Origin: a virus | Length of the DNA stretch: 20,671 nt | Strand: one strand, 5' to 3' | Virus record (IMG/VR): IMGVR_UViG_3300042862_000130 | Location: 1 to 20,671 of that record | Shown here: one piece after another, positions 11,904-20,671 of the stretch | Numbering within the stretch: the first letter of the stretch is position 1 | How the letters are laid out: the number at the start of each line of letters is the position of its first letter | Made by a program: the position numbers and the translations under genes | The notes under the pieces: generated by a model | Seen by the model: only the letters and a program-made list of their open reading frames with translations | What the model was told of the DNA's origin: nothing | Database searches by the model: none

Positions 11904-12436
11904 AATTTATCGTTTAAAGTGAAATCAGTTATTGTAAGCGTTATTTTAAAACAAAAGTAAGGTTGTAAGTCGTGTTTAAAATCATAGGTATATCCTTGAA
12001 AAACGCTATCTAAATCGGTAACAATCTTTGCGTTTAAAGCTAATTCGTCAAACTCTTTCAATACATCCATCACGTCATATAACACTTCTTTGTCGGCCCT
12101 GTTTGTATTGTTTGCTTTGCACTCTTTTAAGTTTACAATAAAATACAAATCCAATTCCGTTGAGAAATAATCTAATGATTTTTGAATGTAATCGTTGTCG
12201 GCTGTGAAAAAAAACTTATTTCTTTCACGGTGTATCAAATTTCCCGAATACTCATTTAATCCTTTGTAATACTCGATTGATTTTTGCTTGTCGCCATCTC
12301 TTTTGATTGATTGACAAATCGGATAACCGTCTAGTTGCGCACCCCAAACAAAAGAAAGTTTTTCGTACAATCTTTTTTGCACTTTATAAACTGTTGCGTT
12401 TATACCTATTGGATTACACTCTAAATTGTTAGCCAT
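11897..12436 (-). CDS. Unrecognised neck / tail-terminator candidate
   Basis: This 179-residue protein is joined to the preceding gene by a TAATG overlap. It has an N-terminal helix (VYKVQKRLYEKLSFVWGAQ), a central beta segment with IHRERNKFFFTADNDYIQKS and LDLYFIVNLKECKA, and a C-terminal beta strand (FCFKITLTITDF). Location between the capsid and tail tube genes, and size, fit a tail terminator or head completion protein. In many siphoviruses the protein just before the tail tube is the tail terminator. I do not recognise specific family motifs, so the call is positional. Confidence 0.5.
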   Translation of the reverse strand: MANNLECNPIGINATVYKVQKRLYEKLSFVWGAQLDGYPICQSIKRDGDKQKSIEYYKGLNEYSGNLIHRERNKFFFTADNDYIQKSLDYFSTELDLYFIVNLKECKANNTNRADKEVLYDVMDVLKEFDELALNAKIVTDLDSVFQGYTYDFKHDLQPYFCFKITLTITDFTLNDKLC

Positions 12437-13509
12437 TATTCCAAAGTTGATACCAAGATTTGACCCGATTTTTTTACTCCTATTTTTATTTTTTGTATTT
12501 CATCTCTTATTGAAGTTATTTCCCCGATAAGTTGGTTTTTCAACCCTTTTACTTTAATCATACTGTCAGCACTTGTGCCTTCTAATTCAATCATTATCTT
12601 CTCGTATAATTGAGTGGATAAGGCTTGATTTATATTGCTTCTAAGGCTAGATAAATATAATTGAATACATTGTATCTGACAATCTAATTGAATAGCTCTA
12701 GCGAATAAATACGAGTTGTTTATCACAAAGTCGGTGTAATCATCGTAAACAGATATGTCTAAGTTTAATCCTGTGTCTTGCGAAAGACCGTCATATTTTG
12801 AAACATCGAATAACTGTTCATAATTGTGATTTATTACGCTAATTTGTTCTATTTCCAAATACTTAAAATTACTCATAACGTTGCCGTTTTCATAATCCCT
12901 AGCATAAGGCACAACAGTTAAACCTTGCGTGTTATATCCAATGTAGTAATCGCCTTTGTATGTGTTGTTGGAATTGTCAAGTACCCAATCTAACACTTCC
13001 GCTTGGTGATCGCTTGTGATTGTAATTACTTTTGAGTAAATAGGCTGCAACGATGCAGTATTCCAAAGAAGTAGCTTTATTTGTCCTGTTCCTTGAAAGT
13101 CTAAAAGAACACGGTTAATTTTAAATGCTACATTTTTAACATTATCCACTTCAATTTCATAACCTACAAAGCCAATAGGTAAAACATTTGTGTTTACTTT
13201 TTTGGTTGCGTTTTTAAACAAAAGGTTTCTATCCAAAAAATCATATTCGGAAAAAACTTGATTACAAACATTTGATATTGCCGACTCTTTTAGTTGCTTT
13301 AAAACTAAATTAAAGTTTTCGTTTGATATTTGTAAATAGTCTTGATTGTCTTTTATATATTCTATCTTTGAATAAGGATTATCCGTAACATAATACCCAG
13401 ACTTGCTAAGTTGATTGTTTGAATCAACAATAGCATAATCAGGATTGAAAGGCTGTTTAAAACCAATCAATCCGATTAAACTATCTTGTATTTTTGCTAC
13501 GTTAATCAT
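12436..13509 (-). CDS. Capsid-proximal protein with a beta-sandwich middle and helical C-terminus
   Basis: This 357-residue protein starts at an ATG sharing one base with the capsid gene stop (TAATG), so translation is coupled. Residues 1-100 form a mixed domain including a helix (FNLVLKQLKESAISNVCNQVF). Residues about 105-205 are a beta-sandwich-like region (VLPIGFVGYEIEVDN, FKINRVLLDFQG, IKLLLWNTASLQPIY, YKGDYYIGYNTQGLTVVPY). Its GDYYIGY turn recalls carbohydrate-binding and decoration domains. Residues 260-340 are helical (FARAIQLDCQIQCIQLYL, then a charged helix). Position directly after the capsid gene suggests a neck or decoration protein. No family was recognised, and the carbohydrate-binding idea is an inference from the strand pattern. 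Confidence 0.55.
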   Translation of the reverse strand: MINVAKIQDSLIGLIGFKQPFNPDYAIVDSNNQLSKSGYYVTDNPYSKIEYIKDNQDYLQISNENFNLVLKQLKESAISNVCNQVFSEYDFLDRNLLFKNATKKVNTNVLPIGFVGYEIEVDNVKNVAFKINRVLLDFQGTGQIKLLLWNTASLQPIYSKVITITSDHQAEVLDWVLDNSNNTYKGDYYIGYNTQGLTVVPYARDYENGNVMSNFKYLEIEQISVINHNYEQLFDVSKYDGLSQDTGLNLDISVYDDYTDFVINNSYLFARAIQLDCQIQCIQLYLSSLRSNINQALSTQLYEKIMIELEGTSADSMIKVKGLKNQLIGEITSIRDEIQKIKIGVKKSGQILVSTLE

Positions 13510-14531
13510 TAAACAATACCGTATGCTAAGATTGTGGTTTCGTTTGCTGTACTCAAAGGAGCTTTTGCAAATGCTAAATCTTGTGAAATTTGGTACTGAG
13601 TAACAACATCCTGAGTGTAGCCGTTGTTAGCTGAGTCGTCAGCTCTTGTTTCGTAAGAATGTACAGCGTATGTTTCTCCATCTACTGGATTTAACAAGCT
13701 AGTATAAACATTCTCTTTAGTTTCTACACCTATTCTGTTTTGGATAGGAATCCAAGGCAATACTGCCACCGTGCCAGTTGGAACAATAATCCAAAAACCT
13801 TTTGAATAAGCCGAAACCAAAGCAGCAGCTAAAGCACCTAACTCAACACAATGCACATAAGTCAATCCATTAAACTGGAATGATAAGTTAGTGTTGTTTT
13901 GTGCTCCTTGCGCGGCTTGATACTCAAATTTAGCATAAGAAATTGAATCGCAGAAAACAGTAGCGCCAGCAGGATATTTGTTTGCGTTAACATTGATTTT
14001 AGCAATTTGAATAGCTCTACTTTCGTTGGCTGTTGCAATTTCAAAAACTTTGTCAACTGCGTCAAAAGTTCCTTCCGCAGTTCCAATATTCACACCTGTA
14101 CGGTTAGCAAACAAATAAGCAGTGGACTGTGTTTCGTAGCCTTCCATGAAATTAGATACAACATTTTGAACTTCTAAATTCATTTGCTCTTGTGCATTAT
14201 ACAAAGAATTGTCTGCCTGTTTTAACGACATATTAAATGTGTCAGAATTAACTGCCCATGTAGGGGTTAGGGTAGCAGTATCGCCTTTAACGCCTGTATG
14301 GTTGTGAGTTCTTGCAGTTCCTAGATTTCTTTTAGAGCGTGTTGCGTAGTTTGTTTCTATTGTTCTGTCTTCTCTTTTTCTCAGTTCCTCATAATTTGGG
14401 AACATAATTGTAGAGTTTTGTTTTAGAGCTAAGTATGTAGCTGGGTATCTGAATCTTAATTCAGAAGATTGAAAGGCTTGAACAAGTTTTGCTTGAGCCT
14501 TTACAAAATTTGCGGTCGTTCTATTCGGCAT
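13509..14531 (-). CDS. Major capsid protein
   Basis: This 340-residue protein lies directly after the scaffold-like gene and is called the major capsid protein from that order, its size and its sequence style. An N-terminal arm (residues 1-60, with KAQAKLVQAFQSSELRFRYP) precedes a region of mixed helix and strand. NSDTFNMSLKQADNSLYNAQ leads into a long helix ending near MEGYETQSTAYLFANRTG. Further on are PAGATVFCDSISYAKFEYQA and the hydrophobic LGALAAALVSAYSKGFWIIV. It then shows PWIPIQNRIGVETKENVYT and a C-terminal strand. I did not identify an HK97-fold signature by residue. The gene has its own upstream gap with a hairpin and repeats, consistent with separate, strong expression. Confidence 0.78.
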   Translation of the reverse strand: MPNRTTANFVKAQAKLVQAFQSSELRFRYPATYLALKQNSTIMFPNYEELRKREDRTIETNYATRSKRNLGTARTHNHTGVKGDTATLTPTWAVNSDTFNMSLKQADNSLYNAQEQMNLEVQNVVSNFMEGYETQSTAYLFANRTGVNIGTAEGTFDAVDKVFEIATANESRAIQIAKINVNANKYPAGATVFCDSISYAKFEYQAAQGAQNNTNLSFQFNGLTYVHCVELGALAAALVSAYSKGFWIIVPTGTVAVLPWIPIQNRIGVETKENVYTSLLNPVDGETYAVHSYETRADDSANNGYTQDVVTQYQISQDLAFAKAPLSTANETTILAYGIV

Positions 14532-15951: not shown

Positions 15952-17565
15952 TTAAATGTTTTCCGTTTTAATTGTTTTTTTGTTGGTTTCAAACCAAATA
16001 TTAAACTCATTTTCTATTTTTGCTGCATCATTAAAATTTGTAACTGTTTGCCAAAACTTTTGAAACAACACTTTTCTTTGCGCTTCTTCATTTCCAAAAA
16101 TAGTAATTACGTCTTTTAATTGCAAATGTAAATAAGGCTCTACTTGCGCCTTTAATAAGTTGGCTTGTAAATCTATTGGATTGTTGCGGTATTTTGCTCC
16201 TAAATATTCTACAAATAACTTATCTAAAACCGTGTTGTTTTCTTGGGCTTGTACAGATTTTTCGTAACGCTCTAAGAGTATGTCATAACTTTCAATAATA
16301 TATCTACGTCCTAGATTTATCGTTATTTTACTTTCATCTTTTTTCTTTGTCGGATCGTAAAAATTAAGCAACCATTCGGATAATTTCCATTCTATGTATT
16401 CGCAAAAGTCAGCATATTTGTTCAGTTGATTTTCAAGTGGTTGTTTGTCAGCTACTATTTCGGTAGCTGTTTTTTGCCCTCTTGCGTTATCAAGTTGCAT
16501 CCCGTACATCGTTCCCCAATGCGATTTGTATATTTGTTCCTCGGTAAGTTTTAATGTTTCTTCATACTTGGCCCATACATCTAAATCAGGACTAATAAAT
16601 CCAGCGATATTTGGCGCAACTATTGGGCTTTCTTTGTCGTCAGGAATTGGCAACTCTACAGCATCAGTGACATCATTTTTACCTACATATTTGCCATGCC
16701 CGTTGCAACTTCCACACTTAACATCTTCAACAGTCCCTGAGCCGTTACAATCACCGCAATACTGGACGTATTTCCAAAAAATAGGATTCCCTTTGTAAAT
16801 CTTGTAAAGCGTCAGAAATGATTGGTCTCTTGCGTATTCTTTTGCATCGTCAAGGATTTGATCAATTGCTGCCAATTTATTTTTTTGACCAATGATATTA
16901 ATATTTGAGCAAATTAGTGCAGGAACTTGTCCGAAAGGATTTTCGAAAGTTTTTTCTTCTTGCAGAATAAAATCGCTCCCTGATTGTAAAAACAGTCTGT
17001 CTTTTGCATCGTCAACAATTCTCCAATATGTTTTTGTTTCTTTTATGTAAGGCTCGAATATTACAAAATCAACAATTTGCCCTTTTGATTTATAGTAACG
17101 AATTGCATCGATTGATTTGTATGTAGGATAAGCTTCTTGATCTTTGTATTCGATAAAAATTAATCCGTTTGGATCGGTGTTAAATAACTGTATTGCGTTA
17201 AGCTGCACCCATTCGGATAATGGCTTGTTATCTCGAATATTGGCTAGTTTATACAAGAACTCTTTTTTAATTGACTCCTTAACATCGTAGTCTTTTAATC
17301 CACCTGTAGCATAGTAAATGTTATCAATAGGTTGAAACAATCGGCTAAACATTGATTGTATATTTTTGGAATACTTACATCTAGCCTTTGCCTTGCTATC
17401 GCTTTCAATTCCTTCAATCTTGTTTATTAGTTCGTCTAAAAAGTCAGTACCATTCACTAACGATTTCAGCTCTTTAGAATATTCGCGCATTTCCTTCCAT
17501 ACAGGAGATAACGCCTGATGTTTTTTTATTGTTTCAATTGCTTCTTGATCGCTTTCAAAAATCAT
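15952..17565 (-). CDS. Portal protein with embedded four-cysteine zinc-finger-like motif
   Basis: I place the start at the ATG at 17565, giving 537 residues; a TTG at 17586 is possible but less likely. The gene follows the large terminase and precedes head assembly genes. Portal features include long helices, IVDFVIFEPYIKETKTYW (about 164-181), GTMYGMQLDNARGQKTATEIV and EYIEWKLSEWLLNFYD (about 397-412). The segment KTATEIVADKQPLENQLNK at 365-383 resembles the ring-helix region found in portals of other tailed phages. Unusually, residues 270-293 contain two CxxCxGxG motifs (YCGDCNGSG and KCGSCNGHG, with cysteines at 270, 273, 284 and 287). This looks like a DnaJ-type zinc module. Its position is internal, not terminal. 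The gap of 34 nt to the terminase stop is the longest in the packaging block. Confidence 0.85.
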   Translation of the reverse strand: MIFESDQEAIETIKKHQALSPVWKEMREYSKELKSLVNGTDFLDELINKIEGIESDSKAKARCKYSKNIQSMFSRLFQPIDNIYYATGGLKDYDVKESIKKEFLYKLANIRDNKPLSEWVQLNAIQLFNTDPNGLIFIEYKDQEAYPTYKSIDAIRYYKSKGQIVDFVIFEPYIKETKTYWRIVDDAKDRLFLQSGSDFILQEEKTFENPFGQVPALICSNINIIGQKNKLAAIDQILDDAKEYARDQSFLTLYKIYKGNPIFWKYVQYCGDCNGSGTVEDVKCGSCNGHGKYVGKNDVTDAVELPIPDDKESPIVAPNIAGFISPDLDVWAKYEETLKLTEEQIYKSHWGTMYGMQLDNARGQKTATEIVADKQPLENQLNKYADFCEYIEWKLSEWLLNFYDPTKKKDESKITINLGRRYIIESYDILLERYEKSVQAQENNTVLDKLFVEYLGAKYRNNPIDLQANLLKAQVEPYLHLQLKDVITIFGNEEAQRKVLFQKFWQTVTNFNDAAKIENEFNIWFETNKKTIKTENI

Positions 17566-17599: not shown

Positions 17600-18955
17600 T
17601 CACCAAATTATTTTCTTTTTCTTTGTTGGCTTTTTTTGATAGTCTTTAAACTGCTTATCAAAAGCGGTACACATAAGGTAATCAAATAAATCCGAGAAGT
17701 GACCAAACTTTTGATAATTAGCTCCAGTCTTCGGGTCTTTTGCCAATTCTTTTAATTTCGTTCCGTCAGGCGCTTCTTTGAGACCTATAAAGTCTGAAAT
17801 TGATTTATGGCAACTTTCGTCAATATTAAATACAATTTCATCGTTAAGCTCTAATACGTTATTAATCCATCCCCCACGCATAACTACGCTAGGATTTGAT
17901 TTCTGCACTCTGTTTATTGGCTTGAATTGCTTTAAACAATCCATTATAATACTGTAGAAGTTATGACCTTTTTCTAATTTTGTGTCTTGTTTATTTGCTG
18001 TTGCATCACCATAAATAAACATTCCAGCATCGTGATGTCTGTATTTCTCAACGATAATTTTACAAACTTCTTTTACTGTATTTCGTGGTGTTTCTCCAGC
18101 TATCTCATCAATTTGAGATACTAAATACTTACCATTATTAATTTGTGATATTTGGAATATACCGCAGGGTAAATAAGGGTTTACGTTGTCATCCCAACTT
18201 ATGTGAAGTGGTAAATTTGGATTATATTTTTGATTATTAACGTGTTTATTAATTTCAAATTGCTTGTAAAATTCTCCACCTGTTTTTAGTTGAACATCCC
18301 AATTCCCCTCCACGTATACCATGTACTCAAACTTTGGCAAATTGTTTAAATTGTCTATGTACGCTTGTGGCAAGTGCGGATTATCGGTTATTTTAGCAGG
18401 AATGTATAGCCAATCGATAGGTAATTCATTCTTTTTATATTTATCGTAAACAACAGTCTTAACCCATCCAAAAGTAGGGTTACAAGTTGCTAAAATAATT
18501 GGTTTTGGTTGTATTTTTGAATGAGGAATAATCCATGACCCCGCACGCTCAAAAGCTTTATACAAACATTTTTCTTGACATTCGTTTATTTCTTCAAATA
18601 AAAATCCATTTACTTCTAATCCTTTCATCCAATCAAAGTCTTTATCTAGCTTGTAGTTTTCGGACTTGAAAATTATAACACTGCCATTTGGATGAGCATA
18701 TTCGAATGGACTTTCTTTTAATTTTCCAGAAGGTTCTAATTTTTTAAAAGAGGGTATCGTAGTGGTTCGTATCTTCTCCATATCCTCACGAATTACGCAC
18801 CATCTTGAACGTGGAAATATTTGGCACATTATAAGAAGTGAGCTTAAACCCCAAACGGATTTCCCCCCACGAATTGCGCCACCGTACAAAATGAAATTAT
18901 AAAGCTCACTTTGCAAAGCGTTCATTGCCTCTGTTTGCTTTGGTGTTAATTCCAT
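17600..18955 (-). CDS. terL: Terminase large subunit (ATPase and nuclease)
   Basis: This 451-residue protein drives genome packaging at the portal. The ATPase half shows a Walker A motif GGAIRGGKS at 25-33, a hydrophobic strand and acidic Walker B in GFLFEEINE at 117-125, and a coupling motif LATCNP at 155-160. The nuclease half carries acidic candidates in HISWDDN (D255, D256), FIYGDAT (D317) and HFSDLFDYL (419-427, D422 and D425), matching the RNase H-like nuclease layout. The C-terminus is short and basic (KKPTKKKKIIW). The ATG follows the small subunit stop by one base. The size is typical of the family. It cuts and translocates DNA together with the small subunit encoded just upstream. 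Confidence 0.95.
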   Translation of the reverse strand: MELTPKQTEAMNALQSELYNFILYGGAIRGGKSVWGLSSLLIMCQIFPRSRWCVIREDMEKIRTTTIPSFKKLEPSGKLKESPFEYAHPNGSVIIFKSENYKLDKDFDWMKGLEVNGFLFEEINECQEKCLYKAFERAGSWIIPHSKIQPKPIILATCNPTFGWVKTVVYDKYKKNELPIDWLYIPAKITDNPHLPQAYIDNLNNLPKFEYMVYVEGNWDVQLKTGGEFYKQFEINKHVNNQKYNPNLPLHISWDDNVNPYLPCGIFQISQINNGKYLVSQIDEIAGETPRNTVKEVCKIIVEKYRHHDAGMFIYGDATANKQDTKLEKGHNFYSIIMDCLKQFKPINRVQKSNPSVVMRGGWINNVLELNDEIVFNIDESCHKSISDFIGLKEAPDGTKLKELAKDPKTGANYQKFGHFSDLFDYLMCTAFDKQFKDYQKKPTKKKKIIW

Positions 18956-19422: not shown

Positions 19423-20466
19423 TTACTTAATTTTATCTAACCATTGTATTTTTATTTGATTAGCTATTTGTGCAGTCATTACTGGCGGTACACTCATACC
19501 AATTAAATATTTTGGTTCTACATCTTGAAAATCGTAATCGAGTGGGTAAGTGCCACACATTTGCACTTCTTTATCGTTTCTATATCTTGGCTCTGAATAT
19601 AAAGTACATAAATCACTTGATGTAATTGTGTTAGATACTTCGTTATCTTTTAATAATTTATGGTTAAAAAACGAATTTGGTCTATTGTCTAACCTTCCAG
19701 CAACATTAGCTAAATCAATATCACTTATAATTTTATTATCCCAATATCTTTTCATATTTTCAGAAATTGGATATTGATTTTCTTTTGTCTTAACCACTCC
19801 AAACGGTATAGCATCCTCACTAAACTCCAACTTCAATTTAGGTAAATTCAAATCCTTTCTTTGGCAAATAAAGAAAACCCTTTCACGTTTTTGTGGAACG
19901 CCCATTGATGCAGCATTAAGTAGAAATAATTGCACATTGTAACCAGCTTCGTCAAAAGCTTTAAATATCTTTTTTACATAAAGTTTAGCATTGCCTTGTA
20001 TCAATCCTTTTACGTTTTCAGCTAATACAATTTTAGGTTGCAACTTCTTTGCAAGTGCAATGTATTCAAAAAACAAATCGTCCAAAACTTGTTCAGCTTG
20101 TCCTTCTTTAAATACCTTTTTTTTGCCCCAATCTTTTTCACGGTTTCCAGCCATTGAAAAAGAACTGCAAGGCGGTGAACCATCTAATAAATCTAAATTG
20201 TATAATTCATCTGGAATATCAGAACGCTTTACAAAGTGCCTAATATCCTCTAAAAATAAGTGTTTTGGTTTATGATTTAATTGATAAACCTTTGCAATTT
20301 TTGGGTCTATTTCAACGCCTCCTAAATGATTAAATCCTGCAAGTTTATAACCCATTGTAGAACCACCACCGCAAATGAAAGTACCAAAAACATTATAATT
20401 ATTTTTAGGTATATTCTTTGACGGATAACCATCGGCTAAATACCATTTATAAGGAAACAAGTGCAT
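19423..20466 (-). CDS. DNA (cytosine-5)-methyltransferase
   Basis: This protein transfers a methyl group from SAM to cytosine C5 in DNA. I prefer the ATG at 20466 (347 residues); a longer frame begins with TTG at 20496. Motif I is FGTFICGGGSTMGY (27-40). The catalytic Cys is in SPPCSSF (C100), followed by ENVKG (150-154) and QKRER (192-196). The 'RYRNDKEVQMCGTYPLDYDF' stretch fits the degenerate motif IX, and GMSVPPVMTAQIANQI (323-338) fits motif X. The target-recognition region at about 220-290 is short, so the recognition sequence cannot be read from it. No nuclease is visible in this window. Its place in the packaging operon suggests protecting the phage genome or aiding packaging. Confidence 0.92.
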   Translation of the reverse strand: MHLFPYKWYLADGYPSKNIPKNNYNVFGTFICGGGSTMGYKLAGFNHLGGVEIDPKIAKVYQLNHKPKHLFLEDIRHFVKRSDIPDELYNLDLLDGSPPCSSFSMAGNREKDWGKKKVFKEGQAEQVLDDLFFEYIALAKKLQPKIVLAENVKGLIQGNAKLYVKKIFKAFDEAGYNVQLFLLNAASMGVPQKRERVFFICQRKDLNLPKLKLEFSEDAIPFGVVKTKENQYPISENMKRYWDNKIISDIDLANVAGRLDNRPNSFFNHKLLKDNEVSNTITSSDLCTLYSEPRYRNDKEVQMCGTYPLDYDFQDVEPKYLIGMSVPPVMTAQIANQIKIQWLDKIK

Positions 20467-20671
20467 CGTATAATATTTTTTCAGGACTTTGTCCAAGTTG
20501 CTTAATTTTGTCTTTAACGAAATTATAATCGTCTTCGGTAAATTCTAATTTAATGCTGTATTTTTGGTCTTCAAAATCATTAGCATTAAATTCCTTGTTT
20601 TTTTCTGAATAGTCTGTATCATTATTCTCTTCCTCCACAACCTCAACCCCCACCTCTTCAATATCAATATC
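20447..20671 (-). CDS. C-terminal part of an upstream gene, truncated at the window edge
   Basis: The frame is open through base 20671, so only the final 74 codons are present. The GTG at 20653 need not be a start. The visible part begins acidic (EEVGVEVVEEENNDTDYSE) and ends in KLEFTEDDYNFVKDKIKQLG and SPEKILYDALVSL, a short helical C-terminus. It overlaps the methyltransferase ATG by 20 nt. The ending resembles C-termini of phage ParB-type or DNA-methylase-linked proteins, but this is a weak impression, and the upstream sequence would decide it. Confidence 0.6.
   Translation of the reverse strand, partial: DIDIEEVGVEVVEEENNDTDYSEKNKEFNANDFEDQKYSIKLEFTEDDYNFVKDKIKQLGQSPEKILYDALVSL

Follow-up and report, generated by a model that had tools for sequence, protein, structure and literature searches.

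The portal protein encoded in the window, by which we mean the whole 20,671-base IMG/VR virus record analysed here, carries four cysteines in its middle part that are kept in every distinct homologous portal covering the region (173 of 173, down to ~14% identity). The four residues very probably bind a metal, and the motifs in which they sit suggest that this metal is most likely zinc. Our preferred reading, which draws on sequence comparison and on a predicted model, is that they form a structural zinc brace of the portal clip, a rigid base first for the packaging motor and then for the adaptor; we put its probability at roughly 70%.

The structural genes of the window all lie on the minus strand, in the order possible terminase small subunit (a weak match, E 0.027), terminase large subunit (TerL), portal, two proteins of unknown function, a capsid-type protein, adaptor, and tail genes. 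The portal gene (15952..17565, minus strand) starts with an ATG at 17565 and encodes 537 amino acids. Residues 25–513 match PHROG 7376 “portal protein” in a full-length profile match (E 7e-35), and the same PHROG was matched by all 48 members of our alignment A2. Structural matches to solved portals, described below, agree with this assignment, and the gene context fits a portal, with terminase upstream and a capsid protein downstream. The terminase large subunit (17600..18955, minus strand), with which the clip is also expected to interact, is without a CxxC; the neighbour in the head block is a major capsid or virion structural protein (13509..14531, minus strand; PHROG 7231, E 5e-20). Pfam PF05133 (SPP1-type portal) gave no row for the window portal up to E 1. 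Directly upstream of the terminase genes lies a DNA methyltransferase gene (window 19423–20496; PHROG 116, E 3e-66).

A double CxxCxGxG module occupies portal residues 270–291 (16693..16758, minus strand). The first motif, CGDCNGSG (C270 and C273; residues 270–277), is encoded at 16735..16758 and the second, CGSCNGHG (C284 and C287; residues 284–291), at 16693..16716, both on the minus strand. The translation therefore confirms the earlier note on this DNA, which had reported two such motifs, with cysteines at 270, 273, 284, and 287, inside a portal. The interval 16705–16758 (minus strand) corresponds exactly to codons 270–287, and the full double motif extends down to 16693. The portal has seven cysteines in total, and its two CxxC pairs are the only ones among the 18 window proteins scanned.

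The four cysteines were present in 12 of 12 portals in a first alignment, in 91 of 91 in a larger one, and in 101 of 101 after ten more had been added. In a further set of 84 rows from 83 loci they were found in 81, the remaining three rows stopping short of the site. Once these three rows and nine duplicates had been dropped, 173 distinct records remained, which form 119 clusters at 90% identity and 78 at 70%; the figure of 100% for invariant columns was computed on the 78 representatives. Among these, seven of the 537 window columns are invariant, namely C270, C273, C284, C287, G351, L381, and G419. Identity to the window protein falls to 14–16% in the most distant members, and the Flavobacterium branch is securely homologous (hhalign probability 100, E 1.2e-47, 542 columns). 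The relatives taken in comprised 80 of 141 from one scan and six of 81 from one phage-record list, with others coming from elsewhere. None of the scan patterns used to find the contigs covers the cysteine region, so the contigs were not selected for their cysteines. Named phages covered include those of Bacteroides, Parabacteroides, Elizabethkingia, Croceibacter, Polaribacter, and Flavobacterium, a Rhodobacteraceae phage, and Pseudanabaena phage Pan5. A search of related portals for the cysteine pattern, as the earlier note had proposed, thus finds it in close and in very distant homologues alike. Two of the records deserve comment in their own right: the portal frame of L194 (3300001335_000036) is in two pieces, possibly through a frameshift or sequencing error, and L099 (JALHFX010000009.1) is a Propionibacterium-binned contig with a portal of the Bacteroides phage type, likely a phage placed in the wrong bin.

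The spacing between the cysteines is less constant than the residues themselves. Among the 78 representatives, the gap between the first and second cysteine ranges from 2 to 10 residues and that between the second and third from 10 to 27, whereas all 78 have CxxC as their second pair. The 2-10-2 spacing is found in 47 of them, and both CxxCxGxG motifs in close succession in 29. Members of the Bacteroides/Flavobacterium branch have a longer first pair, Cx4-10C, and a longer linker of 21–27 residues, the second pair always being CxxC; the Bacteroides branch, at about Cx8-10C-x21-27-CxxC, differs from the window portal also in being without the second CxGxG. Outside the cysteines and a few glycines, the sequence of the module is variable. 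The neighbouring loops vary in length while the second pair stays CxxC, a pattern to be expected if selection acts on ligand geometry, and on the evidence of these alignments what evolution preserves is the four putative ligands and not the DnaJ motif.

Constancy within the family goes together with absence from the portals sampled outside it. No CxxC pair was found in five classical portals (T7, lambda, crAss001, HK97, and P22), nor in 25 full-length SPP1-type portals from bacterial genomes. The four-cysteine site is therefore a trait of the PHROG 7376 family and not a general portal trait, and a clip does not in general need such a site. PHROG 7376 portals, including MP3 of B40-8 and chain A of PDB 9WWA, are homologous to the window portal over their whole length and have the four cysteines in the same place in every member read. 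The SPP1 gp6-type portals (PF05133) share the portal fold (SPP1 7Z4W aligns with Z 18.0 and an rmsd of 5.7 over 389 residues) but, unlike the window family, are without any CxxC in all 25 full-length members. A sub-threshold PF05133 match was obtained for a Flavobacterium phage member of the PHROG 7376 family (E 5.7e-5), and the relative L094 scores 22.7 bits, below the 25.5 cut-off. The earlier view that a four-cysteine portal site is uncommon thus holds outside this family but not within it, where the site is constant, and the description of an otherwise ordinary portal with an oddity has to be given up.

To place the module in the fold, we used an AlphaFold model of the window portal built from 48 window and contig sequences (mean pLDDT 83.4, pTM 0.74). 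Compared with solved structures by Foldseek and VIA-align, the model resembles portals: the 50 matches listed are portals, with Z from 19.6 to 15.0, the best match listed is 8ZDJ (Z 19.6, rmsd 5.5 over 390 residues), and the portals of SPP1, T7, crAss001, P22, and lambda are among them. No zinc-domain structure is among the 50 matches listed by Foldseek for the full portal model, and PDB 9WWA is absent among the matches listed by Foldseek and VIA-align. Two long helices are predicted, a first stem helix at residues 235–257 (16795..16863, minus strand) and a second at residues 328–350 (16516..16584, minus strand). Between them lies a predicted segment of strands and loops, residues 258–327 (16585..16794, minus strand), that we call the clip by analogy with solved portals. 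Local pLDDT is ~75–77 at residues 271–290 and below 50 at residues 296–301. In solved portals, the clip sits between the two stem helices, on the outside of the capsid, and receives the adaptor. The excerpted accounts of phage 812 (PMC12886913) and of JBD30 (PMC11445458) both describe a portal clip that is extra-capsid and takes the adaptor. We assign the four-cysteine site to the clip because it falls between two long helices of the portal fold, as the clip does in solved portals; it is thus predicted, from the model and by analogy, to lie where terminase and adaptor dock. This supports the earlier suggestion that the site is at the connector surface.

DnaJ carries four CxxCxGxG motifs and two zinc sites, and anti-TRAP two motifs and one zinc. 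With its two motifs, the window module therefore corresponds to the single-site form. It has the same motifs as the central zinc domain of DnaJ (PF00684) but two of them instead of four, and hence could make one site at most. The portal aligns with the last part of the PF00684 profile (DnaJ_CXXCXGXG; E 7e-4), at 20.2 bits against a gathering cut-off of 32.7; TIGR02349 also matches the window portal (E 1.5e-4), and the module aligns ungapped with DnaJ 1EXK (E 0.0017). Its alignment with anti-TRAP (RtpA, 3LCZ) is likewise ungapped, with the same two motifs and identical 2-10-2 spacing (E 0.12). The NCBIfam RtpA model (NF058604) matches the Rhodobacteraceae phage portal with E 2.8e-4 and the window portal with E 0.061, at 13.4 bits against a cut-off of 65. 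Apart from this score below the cut-off, anti-TRAP differs from the portal module in being a small stand-alone protein that blocks TRAP. Folding the clip by itself produced a weak model (pLDDT 64, pTM 0.33), for which the top Foldseek row was anti-TRAP 2BX9, a non-significant match (24 columns at 1.3 Å, E 3.4); VIA-align compared the same weak model with anti-TRAP at Z 2.1 (41 residues, 3.4 Å). The label “DnaJ-type”, under which the module was first described, suits the clade of the window; it does not suit the rest of the family, given the 29 of 78 noted above, and the module resembles anti-TRAP or half of a DnaJ domain at scores below the cut-offs.

The nearest described site in the literature searched is in another neck protein. 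In phage 812, a tetra-cysteine loop of the stopper is reported to hold zinc in a crystal structure (PMC12886913). That loop is likewise a four-cysteine zinc site in a neck protein, but it belongs to a stopper and not to a portal, has the form C-P-C…CxxC, and is said in the same paper to be confined to the Herelleviridae. In the excerpted text of two other papers, zinc concerns the tape measure protein of another phage (JBD30 paper, PMC11445458) and turrets and tail fibres (HFTV1 paper, PMC12494034). The literature searched, which consisted of titles and the starts of abstracts with few subscription journals and is thus weak evidence of absence, did not describe a metal site in any portal. A structure of a PHROG 7376-family portal is already in the PDB: chain A of 9WWA belongs to the family and has all four cysteines (profile E 1.2e-222). 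Related PDB chains include the capsid protein of 9WW9 and the terminator protein of 9WWA.

PDB entry 9WWA also points to the likely docking partner of the clip. Over all 440 residues, PDS1 gp52 (L102:132–1451) matches its chain I, which is named “adaptor protein” (1020 bits). The window gene at 12436..13509 (minus strand) has a BLASTP match to PDS1 gp52 (E 4e-14, 22% identity), and both proteins match PHROG 8189, which is listed as of unknown function. On these sequence matches, the window product is identified as the adaptor (head-completion) protein, which is likely to dock on the clip; it has three cysteines and no CxxC. Adaptors of the Bacteroides/Flavobacterium branch, in contrast, have two CxxC pairs in 16 of 18 sequences, with one pair each in L118 and L119, whereas window-type and Rhodobacteraceae adaptors have a CxxC in none of 26, of which five are truncated (L139, L140, L143, L145, and L146). 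Examples of the adaptor pairs, seen in PDS1 gp52 and its relatives L109–L122, L148–L150, and L152, are CGTCTGYG and CLSCNNRG. These pairs possibly form a second metal site in the neck, on the adaptor of that branch. The adaptor thus differs by branch together with the spacing of the portal cysteines, an unexplained parallel.

We propose that the four cysteines make up one metal-binding pair of knuckles in the clip, most likely with one zinc per subunit and hence about twelve zinc ions per portal ring. The clip is the small part of the portal that protrudes from the capsid, and it would have to be rigid although it is small and has long loops, since it would hold the terminase motor first and the adaptor next. 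The zinc site would take the place of a hydrophobic core by pinning the strands that follow the first stem helix, so that loops whose length varies from phage to phage would keep a fixed base for docking. A structural brace seems to us the best reading because the ligands are fixed while the loops vary freely, in a small domain outside the capsid.

The main rival is that the zinc knuckles are a binding surface that touches terminase or adaptor directly and times the exchange of motor for adaptor. The predicted position in the clip speaks for direct contact, as does the branch-wise variation of the adaptor CxxC pairs alongside the portal spacing; however, a module that varies beyond its cysteines and a few glycines is more in keeping with a scaffold than with a conserved surface for contacts, and we hold direct contact to be a possible but clearly less likely account. 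Quite unlikely is a role during packaging in binding DNA or scaffold, two ligands that the earlier note had entertained. Nucleic-acid binding is common among zinc knuckles, and DNA crosses the clip ring, but across 67 sequences the module has a net charge between −4 and +2, with a negative value in 46, which disfavours DNA as the ligand, and an alignment of 39 clip segments has no invariant basic residue in the module. We likewise consider it quite unlikely that the cysteines are engaged in disulphides or in a redox switch, or that their metal is iron and not zinc: the second pair of the Bacteroides branch, CPxC, does recall rubredoxin-like iron sites, but portals assemble in the reducing cytoplasm, and CxxCxGxG is the motif of established zinc modules, those of DnaJ and anti-TRAP. 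That the motifs arose by chance, or through a recent insertion found in this contig alone, is refuted by the conservation of the cysteines in all distinct homologues, a stronger test than shuffling, in which 20,000 permutations of the portal’s own residues gave at least one CxxCxGxG in four cases and at least two CxxC pairs in 47.

Beyond the structural brace itself, we offer a speculative extension, which we think less likely than not: that a whole tailed-phage lineage builds its neck around metal, with a zinc clasp in every clip and a second four-cysteine site on the adaptor of the Bacteroides/Flavobacterium branch, in which case the ring of clasps may order the release of the motor and the docking of the adaptor. 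It is at the clip that the tail connector replaces the packaging motor, an exchange that is difficult to study in detail. The invariant cysteines of the clip offer a single chemical handle by which its function could be tested, either by stripping the metal or by changing single residues. The four-cysteine site also serves as a reliable marker, at the sequence level, of a portal family whose members are often annotated only as hypothetical proteins.
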